DNA of 64,000 nucleotides from Sphingomonadaceae bacterium. GTDB taxonomy: Bacteria > Pseudomonadota > Alphaproteobacteria > Sphingomonadales > Sphingomonadaceae. The DNA lies in assembly GCA_947463325.1 (NCBI GenBank), contig CANHQT010000006.1, positions 1-64,000 of the forward strand, written 5' to 3'. The notes below the pieces were generated by a model that was not told where the DNA came from, did no database searches, and was given only the letters and a program-made list of their open reading frames with translations. Position numbers and translations under genes: made by a program. This document shows, piece after piece, positions 55,993-64,000 of the stretch; the first letter of the stretch is position 1; each line of letters begins with the position of its first letter.

Positions 55993-58971
55993 GTGAAGAC
56001 ATCACGCATTGCCCAATTTAAGGCAGGTTCGGCGCCGTTGGTGCTCGGCCTCGCGCTCATCGCGACGCCGGCCTTTGCGCAGGACGCGGCCGAAGAGGAA
56101 GCTGGCGAAGACATCGTCGTTACCGGCTCGCTCATCACCAACCCGAACCTCGATCGCTCGACTCCGGTCATCGCGACCGGCGCGGACGAAATCGAACTTC
56201 TGCAGACCAACGTCGCGGAAGAAATTCTCCGCGAGATCCCGGGCGTCGTTCCGTCGATCGGTTCTGCGGTGAACAACGGCAACGGCGGCGCGTCGTTCGT
56301 CAACCTTCGTGGTCTCGGTTCGAACCGCAACGTCGTTTTGCTTGACGGTGTGCGCATCGTTCCGGCCGAACTGAACGGCCGCTTCGACCTCAACAACGTT
56401 CCGCTCGCCCTCGTCGAGCGCGTGGACGTGCTGACCGGCGGTGCTTCCACCACCTACGGTGCCGACGCCATCTCCGGTGTTGTCAACTTCATCACGCGTC
56501 AGGATTTCGCCGGCGTTGAAGCCAACCTCGGCACCTCGATCACCGAACAGGGTGACGGCATGACCTTCCGTGCCGATCTCACCATCGGTGCGAACTTCGA
56601 TGACGGCCGCGGTAACGTCGTGCTCGGCATCGGCTATCAGGAAGCCGATCCTGTCTATCAGGGCGCACGTGATGTTTCGCGCTTCAACATCGGCTCCTTC
56701 TCGGGCGCTCCGTCGGGTTCGGGTACCTCGATCCCGTCGCGCTTCTCGGTTCCGGGTTCGGGCACGCTGCAGGTCGCCCCGACCGGCGCTTCGCTGGTTC
56801 CGACCTATGCGCCTTACAACTTCAACCCGTTCAACATCTTCCAGACCCCGTTCGAGCGTTACAACATCTACGCCGCCGGCCGTTATGAAGTGTCGGACGC
56901 TGTGGAAGTTTATACGCGCGGCCTGTTCTCGAAGAACACGGTTTCGACCATCATCGCTCCGTCGGGTTCGTTCGGCATCGCGGTCCAGATCCCGCTGTCG
57001 AACCCGTTCCTGACCGCCGGCATCCGTAACCAGTTCTGCGCCGCCAACGATTCGAACCCGAATCTTGCCGGCACGCAGACTCTGACTGCGGCCGAGTGCG
57101 CTGCAGCCGCGGCGGCAACCAGCCCGACCGACCCCAACTATCGGGAAATCACCACCGCCCTCTTCCGCCGCGCGGAAGAAGTCGGCCCGCGTATTTCCGA
57201 ATATACGACAACCGTGTTTGACTATCGCATCGGCGCTCGTGGCGGCATCACCGACACGATCGACTGGGATGTCTTCGGTTCTTACGGCGAATCGGAAAAT
57301 CTGGAAGTCATTAAGGGCTACACGCTCAACTCGCGTTGGCGTCAGGCCCTGCGGGCGACCAACGTCAACACCTGTATCGACCCGACGAACGGGTGCGTTC
57401 CGGTCAACCCGTTCAGCCCGACCATCGGCGGCATCACGCCTGCCATGTCTCGCTTCTTGACTGCCAATTCGACCGTCCGCGTCGTCACCACCATGGCACA
57501 GGCCCGTGCCACCGTGTCGGGCGACATCGGCTGGTCGGTGCCCTGGGCTTCGGATCCGATCGCCTTCGCGGTCGGCGGCGAATATCGCAACTATGGCGCG
57601 ACTCAGGAATCCGATCTGCTCGCAAAGGGCGGTGACCTCGGCGGTGCCGGCGGTGCTGATCCGGCCATCGATGGCGGCTATGATGTGTACGAAGCCATTG
57701 GTGAAGTCGTCATCCCGCTGGTTCAGGATCGCCCCTTCTTCCACGATCTGACGCTCGAAGCCGGCGTTCGTTATTCGGCTTACACCGTCAACGCTCCCGG
57801 CAGCCCGTCGTACAACACCACGACCTGGAAGGTTGGCGGCAGCTGGAGCCCGGTTGAAGAGTTCAAGATCCGCGGCTCGTACGCTCGTGCAGTGCGCGCA
57901 CCGAACATCGCCGAACTGTTCAATCCGCAGAACACCGGTCTGACCAGCCTGTCGAACGATCCCTGCGCCGTGTTCAATGACGCGGGCGCGCGGATCCGTC
58001 CGAACCCGACTGGTACGCTCCGCGCGGTCTGCCTTGCGCAGGGTGCAAACGCCGGCACGATCGACTCGATCGCGCAGCCGATTGCCAGCCAGGCCAATGC
58101 TACCTCGGGCGGCAACCTTCTGCTCGGGCCGGAAACTTCGGACAGCTGGACGCTTGGTTTCGTGTTTGAACCGACGTTCCTGCCGGGCTTCAGCCTGACG
58201 GTCGACTATTATGACATCGAGATCACAGGCGCGATCACCACACCTGACCCCGATGCCGCAATGGATGCCTGCTTTGCCGGCGCCAACCTGTCGACCACCA
58301 ACCCGGCCTGCTTGGTCATCCGTCGCGATCCGCTCACCGGCGGTCTGAACGGTGATCCGGCAACCACCCGCGGCCTGTTCCTCGCGCTGTCGAACCTTGG
58401 TGCGCTTGCCACCAACGGCATCGACTTCTCGATGAACTATCGTCGTGACATCGGCTTTGCTGATCTGTCGCTGGCACTGTCGGGCAACTGGACGGACAGC
58501 TCAACCTTCAACTCGAACGTGCTCGATCCGAGCGCCGTCACGCGCGAGTGCGTCGGCCTCTATTCGGCCAACTGCGCGTCGATCCAGCCGGAATGGCAGA
58601 CCACCTTCCGCACGACGCTCAGCTTCGAAACGGTCGACGTCTCGCTCCTGTGGCGTCATATCGATGCAGTCGCCTATGAGTTCGGTACCGCGTTCCGCGG
58701 TAACCTGCCGGCAACTGGCGTCGGCAATCTTGCTGGTCAGGCTGTCGACTTCAACCGGATCGATGCGCATGATTACTTTGACCTTTCGACCCGCTGGTCG
58801 ATCGGCGACAATCTGACGCTCACCTTCACGGTTGAGAACCTGCTCGACAAGGAGCCGCCGCTCGTCGGTGCCGACGTGGGTTCGACCGCCTTCAACAGCG
58901 GCAACACCTATCCGTCGACCTACGACTCGCTGGGCCGCACCTACAACGCTGCCCTGAAGCTCCGCTTCTGA
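55993..58971 (+). CDS. TonB-dependent outer-membrane receptor
   Basis: Outer-membrane beta-barrel receptor of 992 residues. A signal peptide (SAPLVLGLALIATPAFAQ) precedes the acidic IVVTGSLI stretch and the plug domain (EILREIPGVVPSIGS, LRGLGSNRNVVLLDGVRIVP, VERVDVLTGGASTTYGADAISGVVNFI). The barrel ends in KLRF with the terminal Phe required for assembly. Ten barrel cysteines form five close pairs: 349/369, 461/468, 658/680, 760/773, 853/861. The start is GTG at 55993 with AAGGA at 55979-55983. Substrate unknown. A strong terminator follows. Confidence 0.93.
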   Translation: MKTSRIAQFKAGSAPLVLGLALIATPAFAQDAAEEEAGEDIVVTGSLITNPNLDRSTPVIATGADEIELLQTNVAEEILREIPGVVPSIGSAVNNGNGGASFVNLRGLGSNRNVVLLDGVRIVPAELNGRFDLNNVPLALVERVDVLTGGASTTYGADAISGVVNFITRQDFAGVEANLGTSITEQGDGMTFRADLTIGANFDDGRGNVVLGIGYQEADPVYQGARDVSRFNIGSFSGAPSGSGTSIPSRFSVPGSGTLQVAPTGASLVPTYAPYNFNPFNIFQTPFERYNIYAAGRYEVSDAVEVYTRGLFSKNTVSTIIAPSGSFGIAVQIPLSNPFLTAGIRNQFCAANDSNPNLAGTQTLTAAECAAAAAATSPTDPNYREITTALFRRAEEVGPRISEYTTTVFDYRIGARGGITDTIDWDVFGSYGESENLEVIKGYTLNSRWRQALRATNVNTCIDPTNGCVPVNPFSPTIGGITPAMSRFLTANSTVRVVTTMAQARATVSGDIGWSVPWASDPIAFAVGGEYRNYGATQESDLLAKGGDLGGAGGADPAIDGGYDVYEAIGEVVIPLVQDRPFFHDLTLEAGVRYSAYTVNAPGSPSYNTTTWKVGGSWSPVEEFKIRGSYARAVRAPNIAELFNPQNTGLTSLSNDPCAVFNDAGARIRPNPTGTLRAVCLAQGANAGTIDSIAQPIASQANATSGGNLLLGPETSDSWTLGFVFEPTFLPGFSLTVDYYDIEITGAITTPDPDAAMDACFAGANLSTTNPACLVIRRDPLTGGLNGDPATTRGLFLALSNLGALATNGIDFSMNYRRDIGFADLSLALSGNWTDSSTFNSNVLDPSAVTRECVGLYSANCASIQPEWQTTFRTTLSFETVDVSLLWRHIDAVAYEFGTAFRGNLPATGVGNLAGQAVDFNRIDAHDYFDLSTRWSIGDNLTLTFTVENLLDKEPPLVGADVGSTAFNSGNTYPSTYDSLGRTYNAALKLRF

Positions 58972-58995
58972 TCGGCGTCGTTTGACGAAAAAAGG

Positions 58996-59025
58996 AAAGG
59001 GCGGGTCGAAAGACCCGCCCTTTTC
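58996..59025 (+). terminator. rho-independent terminator after the TonB receptor
   Basis: A 12-bp stem AAAGGGCGGGTC / GACCCGCCCTTT with a GAAA tetraloop, followed by TTTTC. It ends the receptor transcription unit and separates it from the opposite-strand sulfotransferase-like gene. Confidence 0.88.
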
Positions 59026-59081
59026 GGTTGTGGCTCCCCGAACGCCGGTGCCGATGCGCCCGTGAGCAATAAGCAGAAGCC

Positions 59082-60083
59082 TCAGAGGGCCAGGGCAATC
59101 CCAGCGTTGCGAGCCACGGCCTCCGCCCAGATTGTGACCTTCTCGATCTCCTCGCCATGAGCGGCCATTGCCGCGGCGCGCTCGACGGAGCGCTCTGCGG
59201 CTGAAAAGTCGCTGCCGGACTTGCTGTGTCGGCTGAATGCAGGGCCTTGGGCAAGCGACTGTCCGATGCTTGCTTCTCCCAGCGCGAGATGGTTCGCGAT
59301 TGTCCCGAGCATTGCTGGCGCATGGGCGAGCATTGCTTCGCTGTCGACGGCAAGCACCCGGTCTCCGAAGCGGGCCTTCATCTCATGAAACAGGCGGTGC
59401 TGCGCGACCCAGCCGACCGCTGCGACCTGAAGGTCGGTGAGCCGGAACCATTCGTGGGACTCGAACCCCAGATCGACCACCCCGTCCTGCAGCAGCCTTT
59501 CCAGCAATTCGCGTGCCCAAAGCCGGCACCACATCCCCTTGCGAGCGACCGAGGCCAGGAAGACCGGCAACGGCGCGTGCAACAGGATCGCGCGGGCATC
59601 CGGCCTGAGCGCCAGCATCGCTGCTGCCACCGGGTTGAGGATATTGCTCGGCTTGACGACCACTGCCTCGCCCGTGCCCCACGGCCTCGCCAGCAGGAGC
59701 ATCGCCTCGTCAAGCAGCTGGGCGACGCGCTTTGGTTCCACTTCCCGGCGCTGCCGGATGCCGACGATGTCGTTGAGGATGGTGGGTTCGCTGAGCCCCA
59801 TTGCGAGGCCCGGACGATCGAGCGCCCGCGCGAGCAGGGTCGATGCGCAAAAGGCGGAGTGGAAGATGAGGCGCAGCGGCGCTGTCGTCTCCCTCGCCAG
59901 CGCAACCGCCTCCGCCCGCGCCAGGCGGGCTGCGGGGAGGGCGCCAACATATTCTTCGGTAAGGAACGGAAAGTCGCCGTGTATCTCGCGCGGCACGAAG
60001 CGGAAATGCACCTCGTCCCGCGTGCGCTCATAGCGATGCGCGATCCATTGCGCGTCAGCAGGGTTGAAAGGAAGCTCCGCCAT
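59082..60083 (-). CDS. sulfotransferase-like P-loop protein of unknown function
   Basis: A 333-residue soluble protein. HSAFCASTLLARALDRP (residues 75-91) resembles the 5'-phosphosulfate loop of sulfotransferase-fold proteins (S-x3-S-T-L-L), followed by SEPTILNDI. A second conserved region is VVVKPSNILNPV, and LRPDARAILLHAPLPVFLASVAR looks like the 3'-phosphate-side segment. Classic sulfotransferase catalytic residues are not obvious, so the activity is uncertain. It starts 80 bp from the divergent TPR-hydroxylase gene, and its 3' end faces the TonB receptor. Confidence 0.6.
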   Translation of the reverse strand: MAELPFNPADAQWIAHRYERTRDEVHFRFVPREIHGDFPFLTEEYVGALPAARLARAEAVALARETTAPLRLIFHSAFCASTLLARALDRPGLAMGLSEPTILNDIVGIRQRREVEPKRVAQLLDEAMLLLARPWGTGEAVVVKPSNILNPVAAAMLALRPDARAILLHAPLPVFLASVARKGMWCRLWARELLERLLQDGVVDLGFESHEWFRLTDLQVAAVGWVAQHRLFHEMKARFGDRVLAVDSEAMLAHAPAMLGTIANHLALGEASIGQSLAQGPAFSRHSKSGSDFSAAERSVERAAAMAAHGEEIEKVTIWAEAVARNAGIALAL

Positions 60084-60162
60084 GGCAACGACTCTGGCTC
60101 CCCGATGATCGTAAGGCAAGCGATGGCTTGAGCGCGAGGCGGGCCGTCGCTACGCTCCCTCA

Positions 60163-61347
60163 ATGGTTTCGTACCCGACATTTCCTGCCGACCCGGCGCA
60201 ATGCAACCGCATCGGAATCGGCGCGCTTCAGCAGGGCGACTTTGCCGCTGCCGAGGCGGCATTCCTCGCGGCAACCGCAGCCGATCCCAAAGCGCCCCCG
60301 CTGTGGCGCAACCTGGCCCATGCGCGGCGGGGGTTGGGGGATGATGCGGGCGAGCTCGCAGCGCTGGAAAACGCACTGTCCATCGACCGCACCGACTTTG
60401 TCGCCTGGCTGCGCAAGGCCCAGTTGCATCAACGGCGCGGCGACCGCGCCGACGGGGTGACGGCATGGAGCGGCGTCCTCCAGATGGCGGCTCGCATGGA
60501 CGGACTGCCCGACGCCCTGCGCGCCGAACTGGCCGAAGGCGAGGCCTGGATCCGTGCGCGTGGAAATGACGTTTCATTGCATGTCGAAGCGGCCCTTGGT
60601 TCTGATATCGCTGCGCTCGCGCAGACGGAGGCCCGCCGTGCGCGGGCATTTGTCGATGCCGCCGTCAACGGGCGGCGCATCTACCGCAACGAATGTGCAG
60701 GACTGCACTATCCTTTCCTGCCGGCGGACGAATTTTTCGACGACAGGCATTTTCCCTGGTTCGGCAACATCGCCGCCCATACGTCGGCGATACGAGCTGA
60801 ACTGGAGGCCTTGATGGGCGATCCGGGCGATGCGATGCGGCCCTATGTGCGGCTGGATGAAGGGACACCGGACAACAAATGGTCGGCGCTCGACCACAGC
60901 CTTGCATGGGGCGCGTGTTTCCTGTGGGAATATGGTGAACCGAACCCGCCGGTGTTGGAACGCTGTCCCGTCACTGCTGCCGCATTGGCGTCAGTCCCTT
61001 CGGCGCATATTCCCGGCCGCGCGCCGTCGGCCTTTTTCTCAATGTTAAAGCCCCATACGCGCATCCCCCCGCACACTGGTGTCACCAATACGCGTGCCAT
61101 CATCCACCTGCCGCTGATTGTTCCGCCCGGCTGCGGATTTCGCGTCGGCGGGGAAACCCGCGAATGGGTGGAGGGGCGACCCTTTGCCTTTGACGACACG
61201 ATCGAGCATGAGGCGTGGAACGACAGCGATCAGTTGCGGGCCGTCCTGATTTTTGATGTGTGGAACCCCCATCTTTCAACAGCAGAACAGGACATTATCG
61301 CCAGCTATTATGCTGCTGCCGATGCTGCGCGCGACGCGGCGGATTGA
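60163..61347 (+). CDS. TPR protein with aspartyl/asparaginyl beta-hydroxylase domain
   Basis: A 394-residue fusion. Residues about 10-115 hold TPR-like helices (QQGDFAAAEAAFLAATAADP... NALSIDRTDFVAWLRKAQLHQ). The C-terminal domain is an Fe(II)/2-oxoglutarate hydroxylase of the AspH family. It has HTGVTNTRAIIHLPLIVPPGC with probable Fe ligand H304, FAFDDTIEHEAWN with H349 (45 residues apart, close to the spacing in human AspH), and RAVLIFDVWNP. AspH enzymes use two His ligands and no acidic one. Targets could be peptides or the receptor; no target is shown. It is divergent from the sulfotransferase-like gene. Confidence 0.85.
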   Translation: MVSYPTFPADPAQCNRIGIGALQQGDFAAAEAAFLAATAADPKAPPLWRNLAHARRGLGDDAGELAALENALSIDRTDFVAWLRKAQLHQRRGDRADGVTAWSGVLQMAARMDGLPDALRAELAEGEAWIRARGNDVSLHVEAALGSDIAALAQTEARRARAFVDAAVNGRRIYRNECAGLHYPFLPADEFFDDRHFPWFGNIAAHTSAIRAELEALMGDPGDAMRPYVRLDEGTPDNKWSALDHSLAWGACFLWEYGEPNPPVLERCPVTAAALASVPSAHIPGRAPSAFFSMLKPHTRIPPHTGVTNTRAIIHLPLIVPPGCGFRVGGETREWVEGRPFAFDDTIEHEAWNDSDQLRAVLIFDVWNPHLSTAEQDIIASYYAAADAARDAAD

Positions 61348-61419
61348 AGCAATATTGCCCGCGTGGCAGCAGGCTGTTATAGTAACGCAATACGCCCCTC
61401 CCGAGATTTGAGGTTTGCC

Positions 61420-61704
61420 ATGTCCCGTATCGCAGCATCGCTTGCCGTTTTCGCCACCCTCGGCATGACTGCCGCCGCACTCGCCCAGACTGCTTCGCCT
61501 CCGGTTTCAACCGAGCAGGCCAAGAGCGAGGAGAATAAGGATGGCAGCCGCATCATCTGCCGCCGGGTCGAGGTGACGGGATCACTGGTCAAACGCGGCC
61601 GCGTCTGCCGTACAGCGGATGAGTGGAACCGCATTGCCGAGCATGGCAACTATAATGCACGCAAGATGGTCGATGACTCGACCTCGCGGCAGGGCGGCAA
61701 CTGA
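61420..61704 (+). CDS. small exported protein with CRR-VTGS-CR-EW motif
   Basis: A 94-residue protein with a signal peptide (SRIAASLAVFATLGMTAAALAQ). The mature part contains SRIICRRVEVTGSLVKRGRVCRTADEW, with Cys residues that could pair, then NYNARKMVDDSTSRQGGN. Short sphingomonad exported proteins with this C-R-R...TGS...C-R/T...W pattern are common hypotheticals. The ATG at 61420 has GAGG about 6 bp upstream. It is 72 bp downstream of the TPR-hydroxylase, same strand, and may be in one transcript. Function unknown. Confidence 0.82.
   Translation: MSRIAASLAVFATLGMTAAALAQTASPPVSTEQAKSEENKDGSRIICRRVEVTGSLVKRGRVCRTADEWNRIAEHGNYNARKMVDDSTSRQGGN

Positions 61705-61765: not shown

Positions 61766-64000
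<2,235 letters not shown>

Follow-up and report, generated by a model that had tools for sequence, protein, structure and literature searches.

Human AspH is a protein hydroxylase in which a TPR domain is combined with an AspH oxygenase domain, and both hydroxylation and sulfation are known reactions on secreted human proteins. In sphingomonads and Caulobacter, there are TonB-receptor neighbourhoods in which modifying enzymes of unexplained purpose are situated beside the receptor. A sulfated exported bacterial peptide has been described in the RaxX/RaxST system (PMC6637879), and in a table for Pontixanthobacter, gene clusters for lasso peptides, sulfotransferase and AspH are numbered consecutively (PMC10040529), which hints that enzymes of this type are able to modify peptides. 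Here we analyse a stretch of 64,000 nucleotides (the window) of contig CANHQT010000006.1 from a Sphingomonadaceae bacterium, whose genome is a sphingomonad-type assembly of 2.29 Mb in 57 contigs. The locus of interest contains a TonB-dependent receptor (TBDR), a sulfotransferase-like P-loop protein (ST), a TPR-containing aspartyl/asparaginyl beta-hydroxylase (AspH) and a small exported protein (SMALL).

The locus resembles the RaxX-RaxST system of Xanthomonas (PMC6637879) in that a sulfotransferase-type gene is accompanied by one for a small exported protein. However, it has no raxAB-type protease/exporter and no conserved Tyr in its small protein, and a hydroxylase and a receptor are found instead. 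Like human AspH, the AspH of the locus carries TPR repeats and an AspH oxygenase domain in one chain and retains the two-His iron site and the residues which bind 2-oxoglutarate (2OG). In contrast to the human enzyme, it is cytoplasmic, lacks a membrane anchor and has fewer TPR repeats, and a Pfam search of the proteins of the locus finds no EGF-like domain, the type of domain in which AspH hydroxylates Asp/Asn. ST has its fold in common with the tyrosylprotein sulfotransferases TPST1/2 and bacterial Sulfotransfer_3 proteins (best Foldseek matches E ~1e-5, TM 0.4-0.5), together with the loop Ser-Thr and the following Glu, but it lacks their loop Arg/Lys and 3'-phosphate Arg, and the candidate peptide has no conserved Tyr to offer. 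As in the sphingomonad and Caulobacter neighbourhoods, a receptor stands beside enzymes of unexplained purpose; here, however, these are a hydroxylase and an ST-like protein whose pairing extends beyond the receptor, and no halogenase or SapC was seen.

Conservation of the receptor, SMALL and both enzymes, along with the pairing of ST with varied hydroxylases, suggests a two-step modification of a surface-linked target. We propose, with a probability of about 0.4, that the locus is a sphingomonad functional module whose enzymes act in sequence on one substrate, which is most likely an envelope polypeptide. If true, bacteria would have a protein modification in which hydroxylation is coupled to sulfation, and a large unannotated enzyme family, as well as the puzzling enzymes beside TonB receptors, would gain a function. 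In the open-licence literature, no description of the locus or of the ST-oxygenase pairing was found.

Conservation of the neighbourhood and pairing of the enzymes

A pattern scan with one genome per species yielded 277 close relatives of ST. The best 80 by closeness to ST were examined, and 63 of these have flanks of 6 kb in both directions. In these full-flank loci, AspH lies no more than 6 kb from ST in 62 cases, TBDR in 60 and SMALL in 60. Sphingobium sp. SYK-6 (L177) is one of the strains with the complete locus. The neighbourhood recognized by the first-pass annotation, which had been made from the window alone, is therefore conserved in relatives, and the coordinates given there are confirmed, all four genes being in place. 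The four-gene block is retained in dozens of genera, which goes beyond a chance grouping, and ST relatives are present in 54 of 150 same-family genomes. Flanks vary among the loci (clpB, M23/xseA/purD, or neither), and the block remains intact even where the clpB or M23 flanks are missing. In Blastomonas-type genomes (L034, L037, L134, L137, L148), ST, AspH and SMALL have been relocated as a group away from TBDR, which is left at the old site (L207, L208). The ST copies of Kordiimonadales (L139, L166) nest within the sphingomonad ST tree and adjoin a TBDR, which suggests that ST and receptor were transferred together. Genome-level Fisher tests give p values of 1e-17 to 1e-23, on which we do not rely because the genomes are not independent, the presence of ST requiring just two changes on the receptor tree. 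The first-pass annotation had also proposed to look for fusions; none was found among ST, AspH and SMALL, and the long open reading frames that appear fused are antisense read-through.

The pairing of ST with oxygenases is the stronger signal and is independent of receptor gene order. When all ST-clan genes of the family sample are considered, 47 of 60 have an Fe/2OG oxygenase within 1.5 kb. The partners belong to the families AspH, PF13661, TPR-PF13759, TauD and PF13640, and JmjC_2 is a partner once in another family of the class (L231). At the site studied here, AspH is swapped for PF13661 or TPR-PF13759 oxygenases in some relatives. On the ST tree, the partner has switched at least five times, a count that leaves out ST genes without a close partner. 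Fe/2OG genes are rare in the source genome (PF13640, 1; TauD, 0; PF13759, 2). At L225:8755-18854, from another family within this class, the genes PKHD-ST-TPR-AspH-TPR-sulfotransferase-TBDR-TPR-PF13759 oxygenase follow each other in one run, which is the richest form of the locus seen.

The usual product of Fe/2OG oxygenases is an alcohol or hydroxyl, which is the acceptor of sulfotransferases. This favours hydroxylation followed by group transfer, and the common hydroxyl product would explain why the oxygenase family can be swapped. The first-pass annotation had suggested that paired enzymes hydroxylate or sulfate a peptide or the receptor. This is supported in part: the pairing is stronger than was supposed there, since ST is also found with no fewer than five further oxygenase families, while the receptor or a peptide is a candidate target. 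A much broader reading, in which ST obligately follows at least six Fe/2OG families in a general bacterial pathway of hydroxylation and then sulfation, decorating the receptor or SMALL in this locus, appears doubtful. Conserved pairs of ST-clan genes with TauD-like oxygenases (L074, L076, L084, L088, L090, L230) or PF13640 oxygenases (L080, L082, L083, L085, L087, L227) are often a few bases apart or overlapping and are mostly located away from any TBDR.

The hydroxylase and the sulfotransferase-like protein

AspH (60163..61347, plus strand) is 394 amino acids (aa) long and consists of a TPR region at residues ~14-110, identified by TPR hits, and an oxygenase domain at residues 206-369 (nucleotides 60778-61269, plus strand). 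The match to PF05118 is strong (E 5.1e-42; 143.8 bits against a cut-off of 22.6), and among solved structures, human AspH matches the oxygenase domain best. H304, H349, R311, R359 and S293, which make up the iron and 2OG-binding sites, do not vary among 24 homologues and align with human AspH; the first-pass positions of H304 and H349, the iron ligands, are thereby confirmed. NCBIfam models of lipid hydroxylases score below their cut-offs (OlsC, 82.2 against 450; LpxO, 47.8 against 500). No signal peptide is apparent by inspection. The source genome encodes a second TPR-AspH (G000:C45:6643-7776; L093), whose neighbours are genes for an MFS transporter and a cysteine synthase, on a short contig that contains neither receptor nor ST.

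ST (59082..60083, minus strand) is 333 aa long, and its start at ATG 60083 aligns with those of relatives, TTG 60119 being a possible alternative. Like most members of its clan, it has no Pfam or NCBIfam match; one sub-clade weakly matches Sulfotransfer_3 (E 4e-4). The AlphaFold2 model of ST (57 relatives) has a mean predicted local distance difference test score (pLDDT) of 95.8. All 16 PDB matches obtained with this model by Foldseek at E <= 0.001 are sulfotransferases, with tyrosylprotein sulfotransferases first, and a profile-profile comparison with genuine PF13469 sulfotransferases gives a probability of 90% (E 1.4e-6, calculated for one comparison). ST is a member of the sulfotransferase fold. 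Residues H75, S81, T82, E99, P100, K144 and K288 are invariant, S81 and T82 in 57 sequences. The phosphosulfate loop FHSAFCAST aligns with YPRSGTT, retaining the S81-T82 pair and the subsequent Glu. By analogy with the fold, ST would use 3'-phosphoadenosine 5'-phosphosulfate (PAPS) as sulfate donor. As in AspH, inspection reveals no signal peptide.

Candidate targets and alternative explanations

TBDR (55993..58971, plus strand; 992 aa, GTG start) has a signal-peptide-like N-terminus and matches the Pfam Plug (E 1.2e-22) and TonB_dep_Rec beta-barrel (E 1.3e-31) families. Its orthologues which adjoin ST/AspH in relatives are 47-68% identical to it, and in the main enzyme-positive TBDR clade, 26 of 26 receptors come from ST-bearing genomes. 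Nearly every enzyme-positive receptor keeps D410 and Y443, whereas enzyme-negative receptors mostly have Q/N in place of D410 and W/N/F/Q in place of Y443. On the TBDR tree, these differences amount to three changes for D410 and one for Y443, so that their association with the enzymes is explained by phylogeny, and we rejected them as enzyme-linked target residues. Two genomes (G075 and G143) have three paralogues each of this receptor. In 32 of the 63 named loci (such as L051:14819-15346), the receptor is adjoined by a further exported protein of ~190 aa, which contains a C...R.ACYD motif, weakly resembles VasI and is absent from the window.

SMALL (61420..61704, plus strand; 94 aa) has a signal-peptide-like N-terminus and no Pfam match. 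Its only invariant residues are C47, G54, S55, C63, T65 and W69. SMALL is predicted to form a beta-hairpin, one strand of which carries C47 and the other C63, followed by a helix (AlphaFold2 pLDDT ~83-93 for residues 41-90), and a fold search with this model gave no PDB match. The family is present in 98 of 150 genomes, and its best matches adjoin the module or this receptor clade, a ranking that is partly by construction since the search model was built from module hits. Two or three tandem copies of SMALL are present beside the module in several loci (L060:11625-12936, L145, L165, L179, L183, L191).

In the sequence of events we propose, TBDR and SMALL would be the old pair, to which the TPR-AspH and the divergent ST of sulfotransferase fold were added later. 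AspH would hydroxylate the substrate, and ST would then transfer a group onto the hydroxyl, presumably sulfate from PAPS as its fold suggests; the order of the reactions is inferred. We favour a polypeptide as the target, given the TPR domain of AspH and the resemblance of ST to TPST in fold. Fe(II), 2OG and PAPS are cytoplasmic, and with neither enzyme having a signal peptide, the modification would precede export. The likeliest substrate would be the precursor of SMALL or of TBDR prior to Sec export, recognized via the TPR domain. We regard the two as about equally likely targets; SMALL accompanies the relocated enzymes where the receptor does not.

Several observations weigh against this model. 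The phosphosulfate loop of ST contains no Lys/Arg, with the invariant H75 in place, and at the 3'-phosphate site (PF13469 alignment) S178 is retained and the Arg is replaced in the sequence HAPL. Other conserved basic residues of ST might stand in for this Arg; nevertheless, with the canonical PAPS-binding Arg absent, sulfation is unproven. No nearby oxygenase is found for 13 of the 60 ST-clan genes. None of the conserved residues of SMALL is a Tyr, Asp or Asn, and none of its residues clearly distinguishes loci with ST from those without. These features of SMALL and ST, the phylogenetic confounding of the receptor residues and the lack of fusions leave the receptor or a peptide, put forward in the first-pass annotation, as an unproven target. 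There are just two changes between presence and absence of ST on the TBDR tree, so the link to the receptor may be inherited gene order, and the order purD-xseA-M23-TBDR-SMALL-clpB is found in genomes without either enzyme (L196, L200, L202). From the latter, receptor and SMALL form a pair that predates the enzymes within a long-standing gene order, which accounts for part of the conservation of the neighbourhood.

Four other explanations were considered. That the enzymes have no joint function with the receptor and SMALL, and are linked to them solely by the inherited purD-xseA-M23...clpB order, would accommodate both the enzyme-free loci and the two changes on the tree. We consider this improbable, however, because ST, AspH and SMALL move as a group, the block holds without clpB or M23 flanks, the oxygenase family swaps at the same site, and the Kordiimonadales ST lies among sphingomonad ST beside a TBDR as if co-transferred. 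The missing basic residues, the invariant H75, K144 and K288 in their stead and the lack of database matches for most members could also mean that ST is a divergent P-loop protein with a role other than sulfotransfer: it might catalyse another group transfer or serve Fe/2OG oxygenases as a partner protein. This appears unlikely in view of the exclusively sulfotransferase PDB matches, the retained S81-T82 and Glu, the weak Sulfotransfer_3 match of one sub-clade and the PF13469 profile probability; moreover, bona fide TPR-sulfotransferases are present in some of the same loci.

The remaining two explanations concern the substrate. AspH and ST might act in the synthesis or modification of a small molecule or lipid, such as an ornithine lipid, lipid A, a siderophore-like compound or the ligand of the receptor, rather than on a protein. 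Among NCBIfam models, OlsC and LpxO come closest to the oxygenase domain, albeit below cut-off; a fatty-acid hydroxylase (PF04116, L079:6922-7776) near an ST-clan gene and its oxygenase is a lipid hint for that sub-clade; and clan members partnered by TauD and PF13640 are mostly without a nearby TBDR or SMALL. On the other hand, the TPR domain of AspH points to peptide binding, and to our knowledge OlsC and LpxO have no such domain; the top PDB match is human AspH, and acyltransferase, nonribosomal peptide synthetase and transporter genes are absent from the module. We regard a small-molecule or lipid substrate as possible, yet somewhat unlikely. Alternatively, SMALL could be the precursor of a ribosomally synthesized and post-translationally modified peptide, which would be exported after cytoplasmic hydroxylation and sulfation and then imported by a receptor of its own. 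Such a scheme would fit the tandem SMALL copies, and it has a precedent in RaxX/RaxST (PMC6637879) and a parallel in the consecutively numbered Pontixanthobacter clusters (PMC10040529). We give it little weight, as a leader protease and an ABC exporter are absent from the block, and SMALL is predicted to fold as a mini-domain and occurs without the enzymes as well. A link to lasso peptides was rejected for the genomes sampled: PF13471 (B2) has no match in the source genome, and no B2 gene is near ST or AspH in the 150-genome sample.

Other features of the locus

TBDR and ST are convergent, and the 110-nt gap between them folds at -50 kcal/mol (z -3.4). It contains a strong hairpin with A/T tails (58994..59025), probably a bidirectional terminator, which was picked up as a terminator-like site in a scan whose overall yield is not above that of shuffles. 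The starts of ST and AspH are separated by a divergent intergenic region of 79 bp (60084..60162), which is probably a regulatory region shared by both genes, and this divergent order is retained in most relatives. An extended -10 promoter-like site (TTGCCC-17-TATAGT; 61355..61383, plus strand) is located 5' of SMALL; the consensus scan found 2 such sites against 1.0 expected, making this a weak assignment. The next gene downstream of SMALL, and convergent with it, is clpB (61766..64000, minus strand), assigned from its open reading frame and synteny. It runs off the window and, being a conserved flank of the locus, lies outside the system.

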